Positions 22,386-29,399 of a stretch of DNA of 30,321 nt are shown piece by piece. Position 1 is the stretch's first letter; each line of letters begins with the position of its first letter. The notes under the pieces are model-generated. The model worked only from the letters and a program-made list of their open reading frames with translations. It did no database searches and had not been told where the DNA came from. Position numbers and translations under genes: made by a program. This DNA comes from a virus: the IMG/VR virus record IMGVR_UViG_3300031997_000044, positions 1-30,321 of that record. One strand, given 5' to 3'.

Positions 22386-22979
22386 TCAGAATGGGATCTC
22401 TTCGTCATCCGGCAAATCGTAGATCGTGAATATGCCCTTGCAGTAGTCCCAGGGAATGAGTACAACCAATGTGCTCTTGATGCTGTCTGTGTTGATCCAT
22501 CTGGGATTCGCGCCAGCGCGCTCCTCGCGGGTATACCTCTGGAATGCGCCGCGCAGGTCGTCGGCTCGGCATTGGTAGATTTTGTTTGGCGTTGGAGCAT
22601 AGTAAAAGAAGTATGTCGCCGGGCTGCGTAGAGACCATCCCAACGCGCCGGCCTTCTCTGGTACGCAGGTATGATTGATGCGCAGAATCTCAAAGAGGAC
22701 GTTTCCGCTATTGCCCAGGTACACGTCCGACTTGATTTCCGCTAAGGGCACCCGTCCGTCGCGAGTATAGAGGGCGCAATCCACATCGGCCTCGTGCATC
22801 ACCCGCAATTCGCGCAAGTCCTCAACGCCGACGATCTCGGGGCGTTCGCGCAGGAAGCCCAGGACGATCTCTTCCGCCTTCCGTCCGGCTTTCATATAGT
22901 CGCCGTTGTAGCTTCGCGTCTTCGTTTCGCCCGTAGGAACAGCCCTGATGATGGGAATGTTATGCATCTGGAAGCTCAT
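22386..22979 (-). CDS. Putative PD-(D/E)XK nuclease
   Basis: The ATG at 22979 (197 residues) overlaps the methyltransferase gene by 20 nt; its ribosome site is weak. Catalytic-type residues are visible: 'AGRKAEE' (first Glu), 'HEADVDCALYT' (Asp), and 'VPLAEIKSD' (E-x-K). This pattern is that of the PD-(D/E)XK superfamily. The rest ('ILRINHTCVPEKAGALGWSLRSPATYFFYYAP', then 'STLVVLIPWDYCKG') fits the core strands and helices of such enzymes. Following a methyltransferase by direct coupling, it could be a restriction-like partner or a recombination/replication nuclease. Confidence 0.65.
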   Translation of the reverse strand: MSFQMHNIPIIRAVPTGETKTRSYNGDYMKAGRKAEEIVLGFLRERPEIVGVEDLRELRVMHEADVDCALYTRDGRVPLAEIKSDVYLGNSGNVLFEILRINHTCVPEKAGALGWSLRSPATYFFYYAPTPNKIYQCRADDLRGAFQRYTREERAGANPRWINTDSIKSTLVVLIPWDYCKGIFTIYDLPDDEEIPF

Positions 22980-23916
22980 TTCCGAAGGATTCCCATCCCT
23001 CACGACGTTCACGGGCAAACAGTTCGCAGTACGGGCCGTGGTACATGCTCTCAATGATTCCATATACTTCGTGTGGCTTGGCTGAATGAGCGCCAGGGGT
23101 GAACCTCATCACTGATACGGGCCTCTCCAGCGGATGCGGATTGCCTGCTCGTGTCGCAATCAGTAGCAGCTCATGGTGGGTCATCACGAACCAGCCCATA
23201 CCGGGAGCGCGCCCCTTGTCCCATACCATGCTGGCCTTATACTCAAATCCCCAGGCGTCGATCACGGCCACAGCATCGGGCAACAGCGGCGAGGTGGCCC
23301 ACATAAAAAGCACTGTTTGGTCGTTGCATAGGTCTGACACGGGAAGCGCCGCGATCTCTGGGAGCGGCATTGTCGGGTATTGGCTCGCCGCTGATTGGTC
23401 AAATCCGCTGTTGTCGTAGGCCCAGGGGGGATCAGCATAGACTACTGAGAACGTGCCAACAGGAAGGGGAGGGGTCTCGTGCTTGGCCCCAGCCGCTAGC
23501 GCCCTGCGAATGCGGATCACGTCCTGGCGCTCGGTCTCCGGGGTTATCGTGCCATCGCTTAGTAACTCCTCAAGCACGGGGTCTGGCAACTTCGTGAGTT
23601 CGTACAGGGTACTCCAGGACTGGGGCAAAATCGGCACATGTGCCGGATTTGAGAGCGCGGGATTCTGAGAGATTGCCATAAACCGCTCAGCCGTTCCGGA
23701 CCCAAAGGGCAGATCCTCCTCAATCATGGCCATGAACTCACCATGCCTGAGCATCTCTTTGGCGCGTATCAGCATATCGCCAATGTCGAGGATCGCTCCT
23801 ACCGAATCCTGCCACCGCGTCCGTATGGCCTCAGCCCACTGCCAGCGATCCATTTCGCCGGGGGGAAGGATCTCTCCCGTCGCCGTATTCACCAAAGAGA
23901 CTGTTGTTTCCGTCAT
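22960..23916 (-). CDS. MT-A70 family DNA adenine methyltransferase with DUF3102-like N-terminus
   Basis: This 318-residue protein starts at 23916 behind AAGGGGCGGA. The N-terminal 140 residues resemble DUF3102 ('GAILDIGDMLIRAKEMLRHGEFMAMIEEDLPFGSGTAERFMAI'). The C-terminal domain has the MT-A70 catalytic 'VVYADPPWAYDNSG' with DPPW at 162-165, then 'VLFMWATSPLLPDAVAVIDAWGFEYKASMVWDK' and 'SAKPHEVYGIIE'. It would methylate N6 of adenine in DNA; target site unknown. Driven by its own near-consensus promoter at 24064-24092 through a hairpin leader. Confidence 0.88.
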   Translation of the reverse strand: MTETTVSLVNTATGEILPPGEMDRWQWAEAIRTRWQDSVGAILDIGDMLIRAKEMLRHGEFMAMIEEDLPFGSGTAERFMAISQNPALSNPAHVPILPQSWSTLYELTKLPDPVLEELLSDGTITPETERQDVIRIRRALAAGAKHETPPLPVGTFSVVYADPPWAYDNSGFDQSAASQYPTMPLPEIAALPVSDLCNDQTVLFMWATSPLLPDAVAVIDAWGFEYKASMVWDKGRAPGMGWFVMTHHELLLIATRAGNPHPLERPVSVMRFTPGAHSAKPHEVYGIIESMYHGPYCELFARERREGWESFGNELPDA

Positions 23917-25712: not shown

Positions 25713-26576
25713 TCATCGCGCATTCTTTTCGGCGAGGTACTGCTCCTCACGTAGCAGGTTGTTCTCCTCACTCGCCAGCAACCTCTCCATCACCGGGTCT
25801 TTCTGCTGGGCGTAAGGGCGCAGATCGCTCACTTGCGGCACGTTGAGCGCATCCACCTGCGCCTCTGCGGTCCTGGCGTTGATCCAGGCGTCAATCAACT
25901 TCAGCGCATCGTCAAACGTCCCTGGGTACTGTGCGAGGTGCTCATGGCCCAAGACGGTGTGCACCTGGTCGTTGGTCAGCCCGCGCCTGGTTGTTTCCGC
26001 CCAGAATGCTGCGCGGACCTTGCCCGATGCCGACCAGTGCGTCGCTTTGGGGACGGGCAATTGTGCGTGTTCTACAATCTCACCCGTCTCAGCGACTACT
26101 GCCGTCCTGGCGTCGAGGATGGTCTCCGTCTCGGTCTCATCCAGCCAGCCAAGGCCGACGATGCTCAAGGTAACGCGGCGCTTGGCTTTCGTCTCGGCCT
26201 TCATAATGGCGTTGGCCAACGCATCGCCCTTCAGCCCCTCGATGGCCACTGCGCCCGTGGAAGAATCTGTGCGTCCGTCTACTGCCGTGGCATAGGCCGT
26301 CACCACATAGACGCCGTTGATGGTCTCCCGCTCCAACTTGGTAATAGAGACCTTGCGCGAGGCGCGAAGCTGCTCGGTGCAATCCTTGCGCGCATAAAGC
26401 GTAAGCTTGCCGTTCAGCATGATATAGTCGAATGGCCGGGTGAGGGGATTCAGGTTGAGTGACTTGCAGATGGCCTGGTAGTAACTCACCCTCTGGGCCG
26501 CTGTGAGCTTGGAGAGGTCGCCCATGATGGCGGCCTCGATTGGCGACACATCCGATTTGACGATTTGCGAATCCAT
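25713..26576 (-). CDS. RecT/Rad52-like single-strand annealing protein (probable)
   Basis: This 287-residue protein starts at 26576 with GGAGG six bases upstream. The N-terminal core 'LTAAQRVSYYQAICKSLNLNPLTRPFDYIMLNGKLTLYARKDCTEQLR' and 'MKAETKAKRRVTLSIVGLGWLDETE' is of the type found in phage recombination proteins: the 'ETKA.RR....L.GLG..DE' motif is shared with RecT/Erf groups. It lies in the early replication/recombination block. It would anneal complementary ssDNA during phage replication and recombination. Family level (RecT vs Erf/Rad52) is not settled by eye. Confidence 0.65.
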   Translation of the reverse strand: MDSQIVKSDVSPIEAAIMGDLSKLTAAQRVSYYQAICKSLNLNPLTRPFDYIMLNGKLTLYARKDCTEQLRASRKVSITKLERETINGVYVVTAYATAVDGRTDSSTGAVAIEGLKGDALANAIMKAETKAKRRVTLSIVGLGWLDETETETILDARTAVVAETGEIVEHAQLPVPKATHWSASGKVRAAFWAETTRRGLTNDQVHTVLGHEHLAQYPGTFDDALKLIDAWINARTAEAQVDALNVPQVSDLRPYAQQKDPVMERLLASEENNLLREEQYLAEKNAR

Positions 26577-27625: not shown

Positions 27626-27654
27626 TTGACGTGCCGCTGAGGATATGGTACAAT
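27626..27654 (+). promoter_or_regulatory. Rightward sigma-70 promoter of the methyltransferase unit
   Basis: TTGACG (27626-27631), 17-bp spacer, TACAAT (27649-27654): five of six matches at each element and optimal spacing. Expected start about 27661, which gives a 110-nt leader before the ATG at 27771. This is the only clear rightward promoter that leads into genes. Confidence 0.8.
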
Positions 27655-27698
27655 AGAGGCGCTGGGAGACATTGGGTGAGGGGCGTTTTGTATATCAT

Positions 27699-27751
27699 GG
27701 CCCTGGTATCCTACACCCGTCTCTCAGCAAGACGCCCAGGATACCAGGGCC
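27699..27751 (+). promoter_or_regulatory. Leader hairpin before the rightward methyltransferase
   Basis: GGCCCTGGTATCCT (27699-27712) and AGGATACCAGGGCC (27738-27751) are perfect 14-bp arms with a 25-nt loop, ending a few bases before the GGAGGTGAT ribosome site. No U-tract follows. The structure could control translation, bind a protein (on RNA or, as a palindrome, on DNA), or be an operator for autoregulation by the ParB-like protein. Confidence 0.65.
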
Positions 27752-27770
27752 GCCTTATTGTGGAGGTGAT

Positions 27771-28979
27771 ATGAGAATAGCCGACATCCGCACTGGCGAG
27801 CGTCACCGCAAGGACTTGGGCGACATCACCAGCCTTGCCGCCAGCATCGCCGAAATCGGACTGCTGCACCCTATCGTGGTGACGCCCGACGGTACGCTGA
27901 TCGCCGGGGCCAGGCGGATCGCCGCCTGCGTCTCTCTCGGATGGACGGACATCGCCGTCACCGTGGTAGACATCCCGGCCATCGTGCGCGGCGAAGCTGC
28001 CGAGAACACGGAGCGGCTGAATCTGACGCCAACCGAGGCATGGGAGCTTGCCCAAGAGCTTGAGCCGTTGCTGGCGGCAGAGGCCAAAGAGAGGATGGTA
28101 CAGGCCCACGCTAGCTGTGGCAATTTGCCACAGCTGGATCAAGGCAAGACCCGCGACCAGGTAGCCGAGGCCATCGGCATGAGTGGGCGAACCTACGAGA
28201 AGCTCAAGATGGTGATGGAGGCAGCGGTGGCAGAGCCAGAGAAGTATGCGGGGGTTGCAGAACACATGGCCCAAACAGGAAGCGTAGACGGCGCAGTCAA
28301 AGAGAAGCGGAAACGCGATGTGGACGCCGAGCGTGCTATATTGGTAGAAAAAGCGCAGGCTCTACGCCCGTCCGACCGCTGGCATATTGACGTAGCAGAC
28401 ATCCGCACTTATGCAACGGAACAACGCTTCGACTTCATTATCACCGATCCACCGTATCCACGAGAATACCTCGATCTTTATCGCGTCCTGGCAGAGCGGG
28501 CCCTGGAATGGCTCAAGCCAGGCGGCCTGCTTCTGGCCATGTGCGGCCAATCCTACTTTGACCAGATCATGCTCGTCATGGGAAAGCGCCTCGAATATTA
28601 TTGGATGGCCAGTTACCAGACGCCCGGCCAACCTACACCATTGAGACAGCGCCAGGTCAACACTTCGTGGAAACCGATCTTGATATATGGCCTTCCCGGC
28701 GAATCCTACAAAGGCAAGATTTTCGGCGACGTATGGGTAAGCGGTGGCAACGACAAAGACCACCACAAATGGGGTCAATCCGTCAGCGGGATGCTATCGC
28801 TTGTGAAGCAGGTATGCTTGCCAGGGCAGAGCGTTTTCGACCCGTTCTGTGGCGCTGGCACAACAGGTATCGCGGCGCTCATGCACGGATGCACCTTCTG
28901 GGGCATTGACATTGATGAGAAGAGTGCTGATCTTGCGTGCGGTCGGCTTGCGGAGGTGAACAATGACCAGACCGCGTAA
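27771..28979 (+). CDS. ParB-like domain fused to DNA methyltransferase (plus-strand copy)
   Basis: ATG at 27771 right after GGAGGTGAT (402 residues). ParB-N domain at about 1-90 ('LGDITSLAASIAEIGLLHPIVVTPDGTLIAGARRIAACVSLGW'). An HTH-like middle follows ('TRDQVAEAIGMSGRTYEKLKMVMEAA', about 127-152). The methylase domain has 'FIITDPPYPREYLDLY' (DPPY 226-229) and 'SVFDPFCGAGTTGIAALMHG' (about 354-373), a beta-class N6/N4 methylase. Compared with the 15339-16577 copy it has an added HTH region and little other similarity beyond the shared motifs. Overlaps the next gene by 17 nt. Confidence 0.88.
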   Translation: MRIADIRTGERHRKDLGDITSLAASIAEIGLLHPIVVTPDGTLIAGARRIAACVSLGWTDIAVTVVDIPAIVRGEAAENTERLNLTPTEAWELAQELEPLLAAEAKERMVQAHASCGNLPQLDQGKTRDQVAEAIGMSGRTYEKLKMVMEAAVAEPEKYAGVAEHMAQTGSVDGAVKEKRKRDVDAERAILVEKAQALRPSDRWHIDVADIRTYATEQRFDFIITDPPYPREYLDLYRVLAERALEWLKPGGLLLAMCGQSYFDQIMLVMGKRLEYYWMASYQTPGQPTPLRQRQVNTSWKPILIYGLPGESYKGKIFGDVWVSGGNDKDHHKWGQSVSGMLSLVKQVCLPGQSVFDPFCGAGTTGIAALMHGCTFWGIDIDEKSADLACGRLAEVNNDQTA

Positions 28980-29349
28980 CGACCAACACAGCACGGAGTT
29001 TGGCTTGTGGCTACGCAAGCAGAGAGAGATTGATAGTTCACTGGGCTTTGTCGCAACGAACATTGACTACAAGTGGGAGAATTACAAGACCGGTCAATGG
29101 ATGTTCATTGAAGAGAAACGATATGGGCGGCTAGTCGAGTCCTCGCAGCGCAAACAGTTTGTATCTCTTGATAAGGCACAAACAGACCCTCTTTATCGTG
29201 GATTCTGGATTATCAGGTTCCAGAAGACGTCTCCAGAAGATGGCCTTATCTGGCTCGGTCGTTTGTGTCAGCAATCGCAAGCAGAGAAATACGAAGAGAT
29301 AACGAAACAACAACTGCTCGGCTTCCTGAAGGGGTTTGCCCTCTTGTGA
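28963..29349 (+). CDS. Methyltransferase-coupled protein with D...ExK nuclease-like motif
   Basis: This 128-residue protein has an ATG at 28963 behind GGAGGTGAACA. The stretch 'NIDYKWENYKTGQWMFIEEKRYG' puts Asp35 and Glu50-x-Lys52 at the spacing of a PD-(D/E)XK active site (D, then E-x-K on the next strand). The rest includes 'GFWIIRFQKTSPEDGLIWLG' and is helical at the C-terminus. It is translated together with the methyltransferase before it. A small nuclease partnered with the modification enzyme is inferred; family not recognised by name. Confidence 0.6.
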   Translation: MTRPRNDQHSTEFGLWLRKQREIDSSLGFVATNIDYKWENYKTGQWMFIEEKRYGRLVESSQRKQFVSLDKAQTDPLYRGFWIIRFQKTSPEDGLIWLGRLCQQSQAEKYEEITKQQLLGFLKGFALL

Positions 29350-29364
29350 CCCACAAAAGCACCT

Positions 29365-29399
29365 GGGGCGGCCAGGTGGAGGTCGAACCCAGCCGCCCC
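29365..29399. terminator. Hairpin between convergent operons
   Basis: GGGGCGGC (29365-29372) and GCCGCCCC (29392-29399) pair perfectly, with a 19-nt loop, in the 105-nt gap where the rightward unit meets the leftward holin gene. No U-run follows either arm. A bidirectional Rho-independent-like or roadblock hairpin is the simplest reading given the convergent layout. Confidence 0.45.

Follow-up and report, generated by a model that had tools for sequence, protein, structure and literature searches.

A stretch of viral DNA of 30,321 nt (IMG/VR virus record IMGVR_UViG_3300031997_000044, positions 1 to 30,321; hereafter the window) carries a two-gene cassette in which the gene of an N6/N4 DNA methyltransferase (MTase) is overlapped by the gene of a 128-aa protein of the PD-(D/E)XK type. 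The cassette is real, recurrent and largely unannotated: the two genes occur side by side in many other viruses, the catalytic residues of the small protein are invariant under purifying selection, and the nuclease-type gene has been exchanged repeatedly beside a conserved MTase. Its purpose we infer, and with a probability of about one half (0.48) we read the module as a translationally coupled modification-nuclease cassette, in which the small protein would be an active nuclease, methylation would control it, and its DNA substrate would be set by the marking of the DNA. The coupling of the small gene to modification is well supported.

Results

Organization of the cassette

The identified genes elsewhere in the window, i.e., those for the terminase, the major head protein, the tape measure, an M23 peptidase and two further MTases, lie on the minus strand, and the cassette forms a single plus-strand unit at about 27.6 to 29.35 kb. 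The GC and AT skews are jointly positive solely in 28-29 kb, which agrees with the first-pass annotation that this is the only rightward transcription unit, with room left for tiny plus-strand genes. The MTase ORF (27771-28979, plus strand, 402 aa) is preceded by the ribosome-binding site GGAGGTGAT at 27760-27770; a longer tool call starting at TTG 27672 is unlikely, since 27771 is the first ATG to have GGAGGTGAT ahead of it. The proposed fusion of ParB-like, HTH and methyltransferase parts was borne out by profile searches, with Pfam matches to N6_N4_Mtase (PF01555) at 1.8e-15, above the cut-off, and to ParB_N at 3.3e-5, just below the gathering score, and a PHROG match to the ParB-like phrog_12047 at 1.2e-30. 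Beta-class N6/N4 MTases are defined here by motif IV, (D/N/S)PP(Y/F/W), followed by motif I, FxGxGT, together with the N6_N4_Mtase profile, and in this protein DPPYP (motif IV) stands ahead of DPFCGAGTT (motif I). The 128-aa ORF (28963-29349, plus strand) is preceded by a GGAGGTG ribosome site and overlaps the MTase ORF by 17 nt; both the overlap and the positions of D35, E50 and K52, with E51 between the last two, are as previously annotated. Its candidate motifs are E12 (I), D35 (II), E50/K52 (III) and Q62 (IV). The hairpin CACCTGG-CCAGGTG directly past the cassette (29360-29378) is terminator-like only for the oncoming minus-strand genes.

Elsewhere on the minus strand, an MT-A70-type second MTase is followed by a 197-aa protein with a 20-nt overlap (22386-22979 / 22960-23916). 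By eye, the D-x-D ... AEIK motif of the 197-aa protein (HEADVDCALYTRDGRVPLAEIKSD) resembles that of PD-(D/E)XK enzymes, and a search for family matches and relatives of this protein found none. A protein that appears RecT-like by eye (NLNPLTRPFDYIMLNGKLTLYARKDC) is encoded at 25713-26576, also on the minus strand, and its Pfam and PHROG matches are unconvincing.

The leader

A promoter-like site of the sigma-70 type, a consensus match only (TTGACG-17-TACAAT with an extended -10 TG; 27626-27654, plus strand), precedes the MTase gene. Four sites of this type were seen in the 3.3 kb, where 1.6 would be expected; the site alone is therefore within chance, and its support comes from its placement immediately 5' of the leader. 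The cassette had been credited with its own strong promoter; the consensus site is there, and it does not go beyond chance by itself. Three inverted repeats are found in the leader (27661-27752, plus strand; repeat scan), each interleaved with the other two to give the order A M B A' M' B', namely A at 27661-27670 / 27719-27728, M at 27681-27691 / 27727-27737 and B at 27698-27712 / 27738-27752. Repeat B is the leader hairpin with 14-bp arms that had been noticed before, a perfect inverted repeat at 27699-27712 / 27738-27751; in shuffles of the same 220 nt the arm length was never above 8.

Scans for interleaved repeats across all loci (designated L and a number) gave 494 matches, many of them GC-rich and largely due to chance, and our claim for the leader is therefore based not on that count but on its rank, its position and a random-window control. 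The leader of the window is the top-scoring interleaved pair among 403 windows sampled in the 30 kb, and of the 950 random windows of the control, four scored at least 64, two of them owing to one element of L128/L130. Interleaved repeats with other sequences stand 5' of the MTase in L015, L016, L025/L041, L032 and L042, and leaders of this kind also precede MTases paired with another partner family (L093, L128, L132). Ten other relatives are without an interleaved leader, which thus seems restricted to some cassette copies. An Rfam search of the leader gave no convincing family match, and its exact repeat was sought elsewhere and not found. The leader may be an attenuator, a pseudoknot or a protein-binding site, all of them candidates.

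The A M B A' M' B' architecture also lies directly 5' of an HNH endonuclease gene in L128 (4470-4600) and in L130, where this gene adjoins a primase-like gene.

Family and predicted fold of the small protein

Iterated alignment searches found the small protein encoded in 46 other loci, 45 of them viral and one in a bacterial assembly; among 380 genomes of the phylum of L043, only L043 itself had it. The family was recovered only through alignment queries, single-sequence queries being insufficient: with the small protein alone, one viral relative was obtained and no match in genome contigs, INPHARED or PLSDB. Pfam, PHROGs, NCBIfam, PADLOC and PDB sequences gave no named match; the PDB sequence matches were at chance level and were discarded, and a match to the BpuSI restriction enzyme (E 1.3) was too weak and was set aside as evidence. 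Members of the family are 116-155 aa long. The small gene has a dN/dS of 0.03-0.17 in close pairs and is under strong purifying selection.

Proteins of the PD-(D/E)XK superfamily have the motif II D and the motif III (D/E)xK at a set spacing and residues of motifs I and IV in core helices (PMC1913061). The small protein follows this pattern with D35, E50, K52 and Q62, which are invariant, as are E51 and R53, in 38 of 38 distinct sequences, and with E12, kept in 37 of the 38; D35, E50 and K52, from which a nuclease-like protein had been proposed, thus hold throughout the family. AlphaFold2 models of two family members, built on the family's own alignments, reached pLDDT 83 and 86 with pTM 0.73. 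The small protein is modelled with helix 12-18, strands 36-39 and 46-52, helix 60-72 and strand 78-86, no strand being assigned before residue 36, and the second member is nearly identical. As read from this secondary structure, the hairpin 36-39/46-52 would set D35 opposite E50, the usual PD-(D/E)XK arrangement.

Foldseek against the BFVD viral models returned a top match at E 8e-8 and four matches at E 1e-3 or better; a VRR-NUC protein (E 3.6e-3), the single one in the top ranks, was among the matches with probability 1.00, and PD-(D/E)XK and RecU proteins stood lower down. Against the PDB the best E was 0.054 and no match was individually significant, and the list consisted mainly of PD-(D/E)XK enzymes (cap-snatching endonucleases, splicing endonuclease, Cas4-type proteins). 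The nuclease-like fold that had been suggested is thus favoured by the viral models and by the composition of the PDB list, and not by any significant match to a solved structure. We consider a PD-(D/E)XK nuclease fold of the small protein very probable. The protein is likely a minimal PD-(D/E)XK nuclease, predicted to be close to the bare core fold with scant room for sequence recognition. None of 30 members matched VRR-NUC (PF08774) in Pfam at the gathering score, and no similarity to Hjc was detected by sequence or profile in Pfam, NCBIfam or PDB sequences, the agreement with Hjc lying in motif spacing and size only.

Association of the small gene with methyltransferase genes

An MTase gene lies directly upstream of the small gene in 35 of the 47 loci, as the cassette proposed in the first-pass annotation requires, and the two genes overlap in 33 loci by 4-29 nt, most often by 20; the two adjacent but non-overlapping pairs (L003 and L005) look like assembly errors. 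At least three MTase types are found upstream: the common DPPYP-first type, a permuted type with motif I before DPPYW (L002, L011, L029), and the divergent MTase of L055 (33% identity). The loci with permuted MTases fall at two separate positions in the small-protein tree. The Mantel correlation between the distances of the MTases and those of the small proteins (r 0.18, p 0.21) lends no support to strict co-divergence.

The 12 loci without an adjacent MTase form one monophyletic clade (support 93/90), which keeps the catalytic residues intact. PF01555 was absent from all nine contigs of this clade that were searched, and two of its contigs of 35 kb, possibly incomplete, had no MTase motif in ORFs of at least 100 codons. 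In this clade the small gene is located in an early region, in the neighbourhood of genes for RecT/Bet-like and VRR-NUC-like proteins, and in L031 it overlaps an unrelated upstream gene by 20 nt. Many relatives lie within replication/recombination operons, so the description of the module as isolated and self-regulated fails as a general trait.

Exchange of the partner gene

The reciprocal search with the MTase core as query yielded 185 viral relatives; the best 80 of 185 were kept, and 78 of these had downstream DNA. In about 75 of the 78 loci the neighbour of the MTase is a small gene whose product carries a motif of the PD-(D/E)XK type or its lysine-shifted form, and these genes fall into about eight sequence families. 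The partner belongs to the family of the 128-aa protein in about 32 loci, to the ERTGWRD...DIDF...EYK family in 27 (two scanned members match phrog_16357, of unknown function), to a PD...DFK family in 7 and to a TDID...D(L/R)K family in 5; four are singletons with similar motifs, and in three loci (L098, L119, L136) the downstream gene is not nuclease-like. Of 55 non-redundant partners, 47 agree with a loose motif, as do 32 of 222 ORFs taken as controls from these loci; the contrast is descriptive, since the pattern was composed after inspection of the data. A profile alignment of the two largest partner families (E 0.007) places D35 on DID and E50xK52 on EYK, and L139 matches the profile of the 128-aa protein family at 9e-5, which suggests that the two families are probably remote homologues. 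Partner families switch at least 8 times across the MTase tree, against a minimum of 3, within well supported clades; thus L087 (third family) stands beside L089 (128-aa protein family) with support 98/84, and L093/L095 beside L078/L080 with 98/88. This indicates a slot that is refilled by predicted nucleases of the same type.

The front part of the MTase varies among relatives, being ParB-like, HTH, or neither recognised, and the stretch that separates motif IV from motif I, with 64% identity, is about as conserved as the catalytic motifs. In beta-class MTases this region is the one responsible for site recognition, and target diversity thus seems not to track partner diversity.

Several further loci are of note in their own right. 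In L004-L010, which have near-identical MTases from one metagenome, the ParB-HTH linker (MTase residues ~115-150) is strongly divergent, as if hypervariable. In the partners of L106, L134 and L140, VETAQD, IEATTN and VEAARD replace ExK, and the lysine of motif III has been lost or lies on the next helix. The cultivated archaeal Methanoculleus virus L4768/Blf4 (L059, 3339-3905) encodes a related MTase (~30% identity) whose gene overlaps that of an unrelated protein of 189 aa bearing the motif D...IDVERK; homology to the small protein was undetectable for the partners of the related MTases in Blf4 and in an Oceanotoga phage. Cultivated Streptomyces phages encode a protein of 308 aa that matches the ERTGWRD/EYK partner family in its N-terminal part (L141, Streptomyces phage YDN12, 3495-5474); a DNA methylase comes after it in YDN12, and none is annotated nearby in phiSAJS1.

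Discussion

The cassette resembles several known systems in part. As in Type II restriction-modification, an N6/N4 MTase gene lies beside a PD-(D/E)XK gene and the MTase is conserved while the nucleases are highly divergent; here, however, the small protein is of 116-155 aa, the pair occurs in viral contigs and is known from genes alone, the MTase middle is conserved across very different viruses, and one clade is without an MTase. Orphan phage ParB-methyltransferase fusions have the same combination of ParB/HTH and N6_N4_Mtase (phrog_12047, phrog_67, phrog_498), whereas the MTase described here has an overlapping small nuclease-type gene downstream. The best PADLOC match of the MTase is mad2 of the MADS defence system (7.8e-19), which would also comprise other mad genes, but this match covers the MTase only, and the partner gene had no PADLOC match in the scan of these two genes.

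In the mechanism that we propose, the first gene would encode an N6/N4 DNA MTase on an exchangeable ParB/HTH DNA-binding front, and the second a minimal metal-dependent PD-(D/E)XK nuclease. The MTase would mark the DNA of the virus itself, and the nuclease would cut unmarked DNA, or DNA to which the ParB/HTH-MTase brings it, i.e., the host chromosome or rival genomes. With such marking and selective cutting, the pair would act like restriction-modification, not necessarily of Type II, where endonuclease and MTase share one recognition sequence and methylation prevents the cut. The first-pass annotation had likened the module to a compact restriction-modification cassette; the cassette part of that reading gained from the reciprocal test, in which a small PD-(D/E)XK-like protein comes after the MTase in nearly every case, while restriction-modification as stated finds no such support, one whole clade having no adjacent MTase. 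This clade, the conserved MTase middle and the little room for recognition in the small protein together favour a modification-coupled nuclease over simple restriction-modification, and targeting is perhaps supplied by the ParB/HTH-MTase rather than by the nuclease. We count against our reading the 12-locus clade that keeps the catalytic residues without an adjacent MTase, the 64% identity in the MTase middle, which is unlike the target diversity usual in restriction systems, and the partners in L106, L134 and L140 without the motif III lysine.

The main rival, which we regard as quite conceivable, takes the small protein for a structure-specific nuclease, in the size class of Hjc / VRR-NUC, that processes junctions, flaps or ends in recombination or replication, the adjacency of the MTase then reflecting co-expression in an early operon. 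The spacing E12-D35-E50-K52-Q62 is near that of archaeal Hjc (E9-D33-E46-K48-D61; PMC1913061), the size and the order of motifs I-IV are similar, and the Foldseek matches include RecU and VRR-NUC proteins, although the small protein has no significant Pfam VRR-NUC or PDB-chain sequence match and is coupled to an MTase. Many relatives adjoin replication genes, and the company of RecT/Bet-like and VRR-NUC-like genes in the MTase-less clade would suit such a role as well. Other resolvase-type genes, however, seem by eye to be present already (RusA-like in L017, VRR-NUC-like in L030), and neither MTase adjacency in 35 of 47 loci nor swapping with other PD-(D/E)XK families would be expected of a general recombination gene.

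The tight coupling to the MTase and the partners without a motif III lysine could also be explained if the small protein had the PD-(D/E)XK fold and served as a non-cutting MTase accessory, a DNA-binding or regulatory subunit. We hold this to be improbable, as every catalytic residue of the 128-aa family is kept under strong purifying selection and the protein is retained in phages without a recognisable MTase. A Vsr-like nuclease for the repair of lesions at methylated sites is more improbable still. The Vsr gene overlaps the dcm methyltransferase gene, and the two layouts are alike in that a gene for a small PD-(D/E)XK enzyme overlaps a DNA MTase gene; 5-methylcytosine, though, deaminates to thymine and the products of N6/N4 methylation do not, and the MTases here are of the N6/N4 class. 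Vsr is likewise a small enzyme with the PD-(D/E)XK fold (PMC1913061), yet no sequence similarity of the small protein to the PDB chain set was detected, and the family of the small protein persists without an MTase.

Phage MTases are usually interpreted as solitary shields from host restriction. The MTase subfamily of the modification-nuclease cassette is almost never alone, having a small PD-(D/E)XK-type gene 3' that is often exchanged while the MTase stays, and the small partner proteins are so tiny and divergent that the searched annotation libraries give them no name. We found no description of the MTase/small-nuclease pair in the open-access literature, and it is a tentative and rather doubtful suggestion that the cassettes make up an undescribed, widespread class in phages, which would combine an MTase subfamily with exchangeable fronts, swappable minimal nucleases targeted by the MTase, and a new interleaved leader in the stand-alone copies. 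If the small partners are active, these viruses would bear a restriction-like weapon of their own or a methylation-guided processing enzyme.
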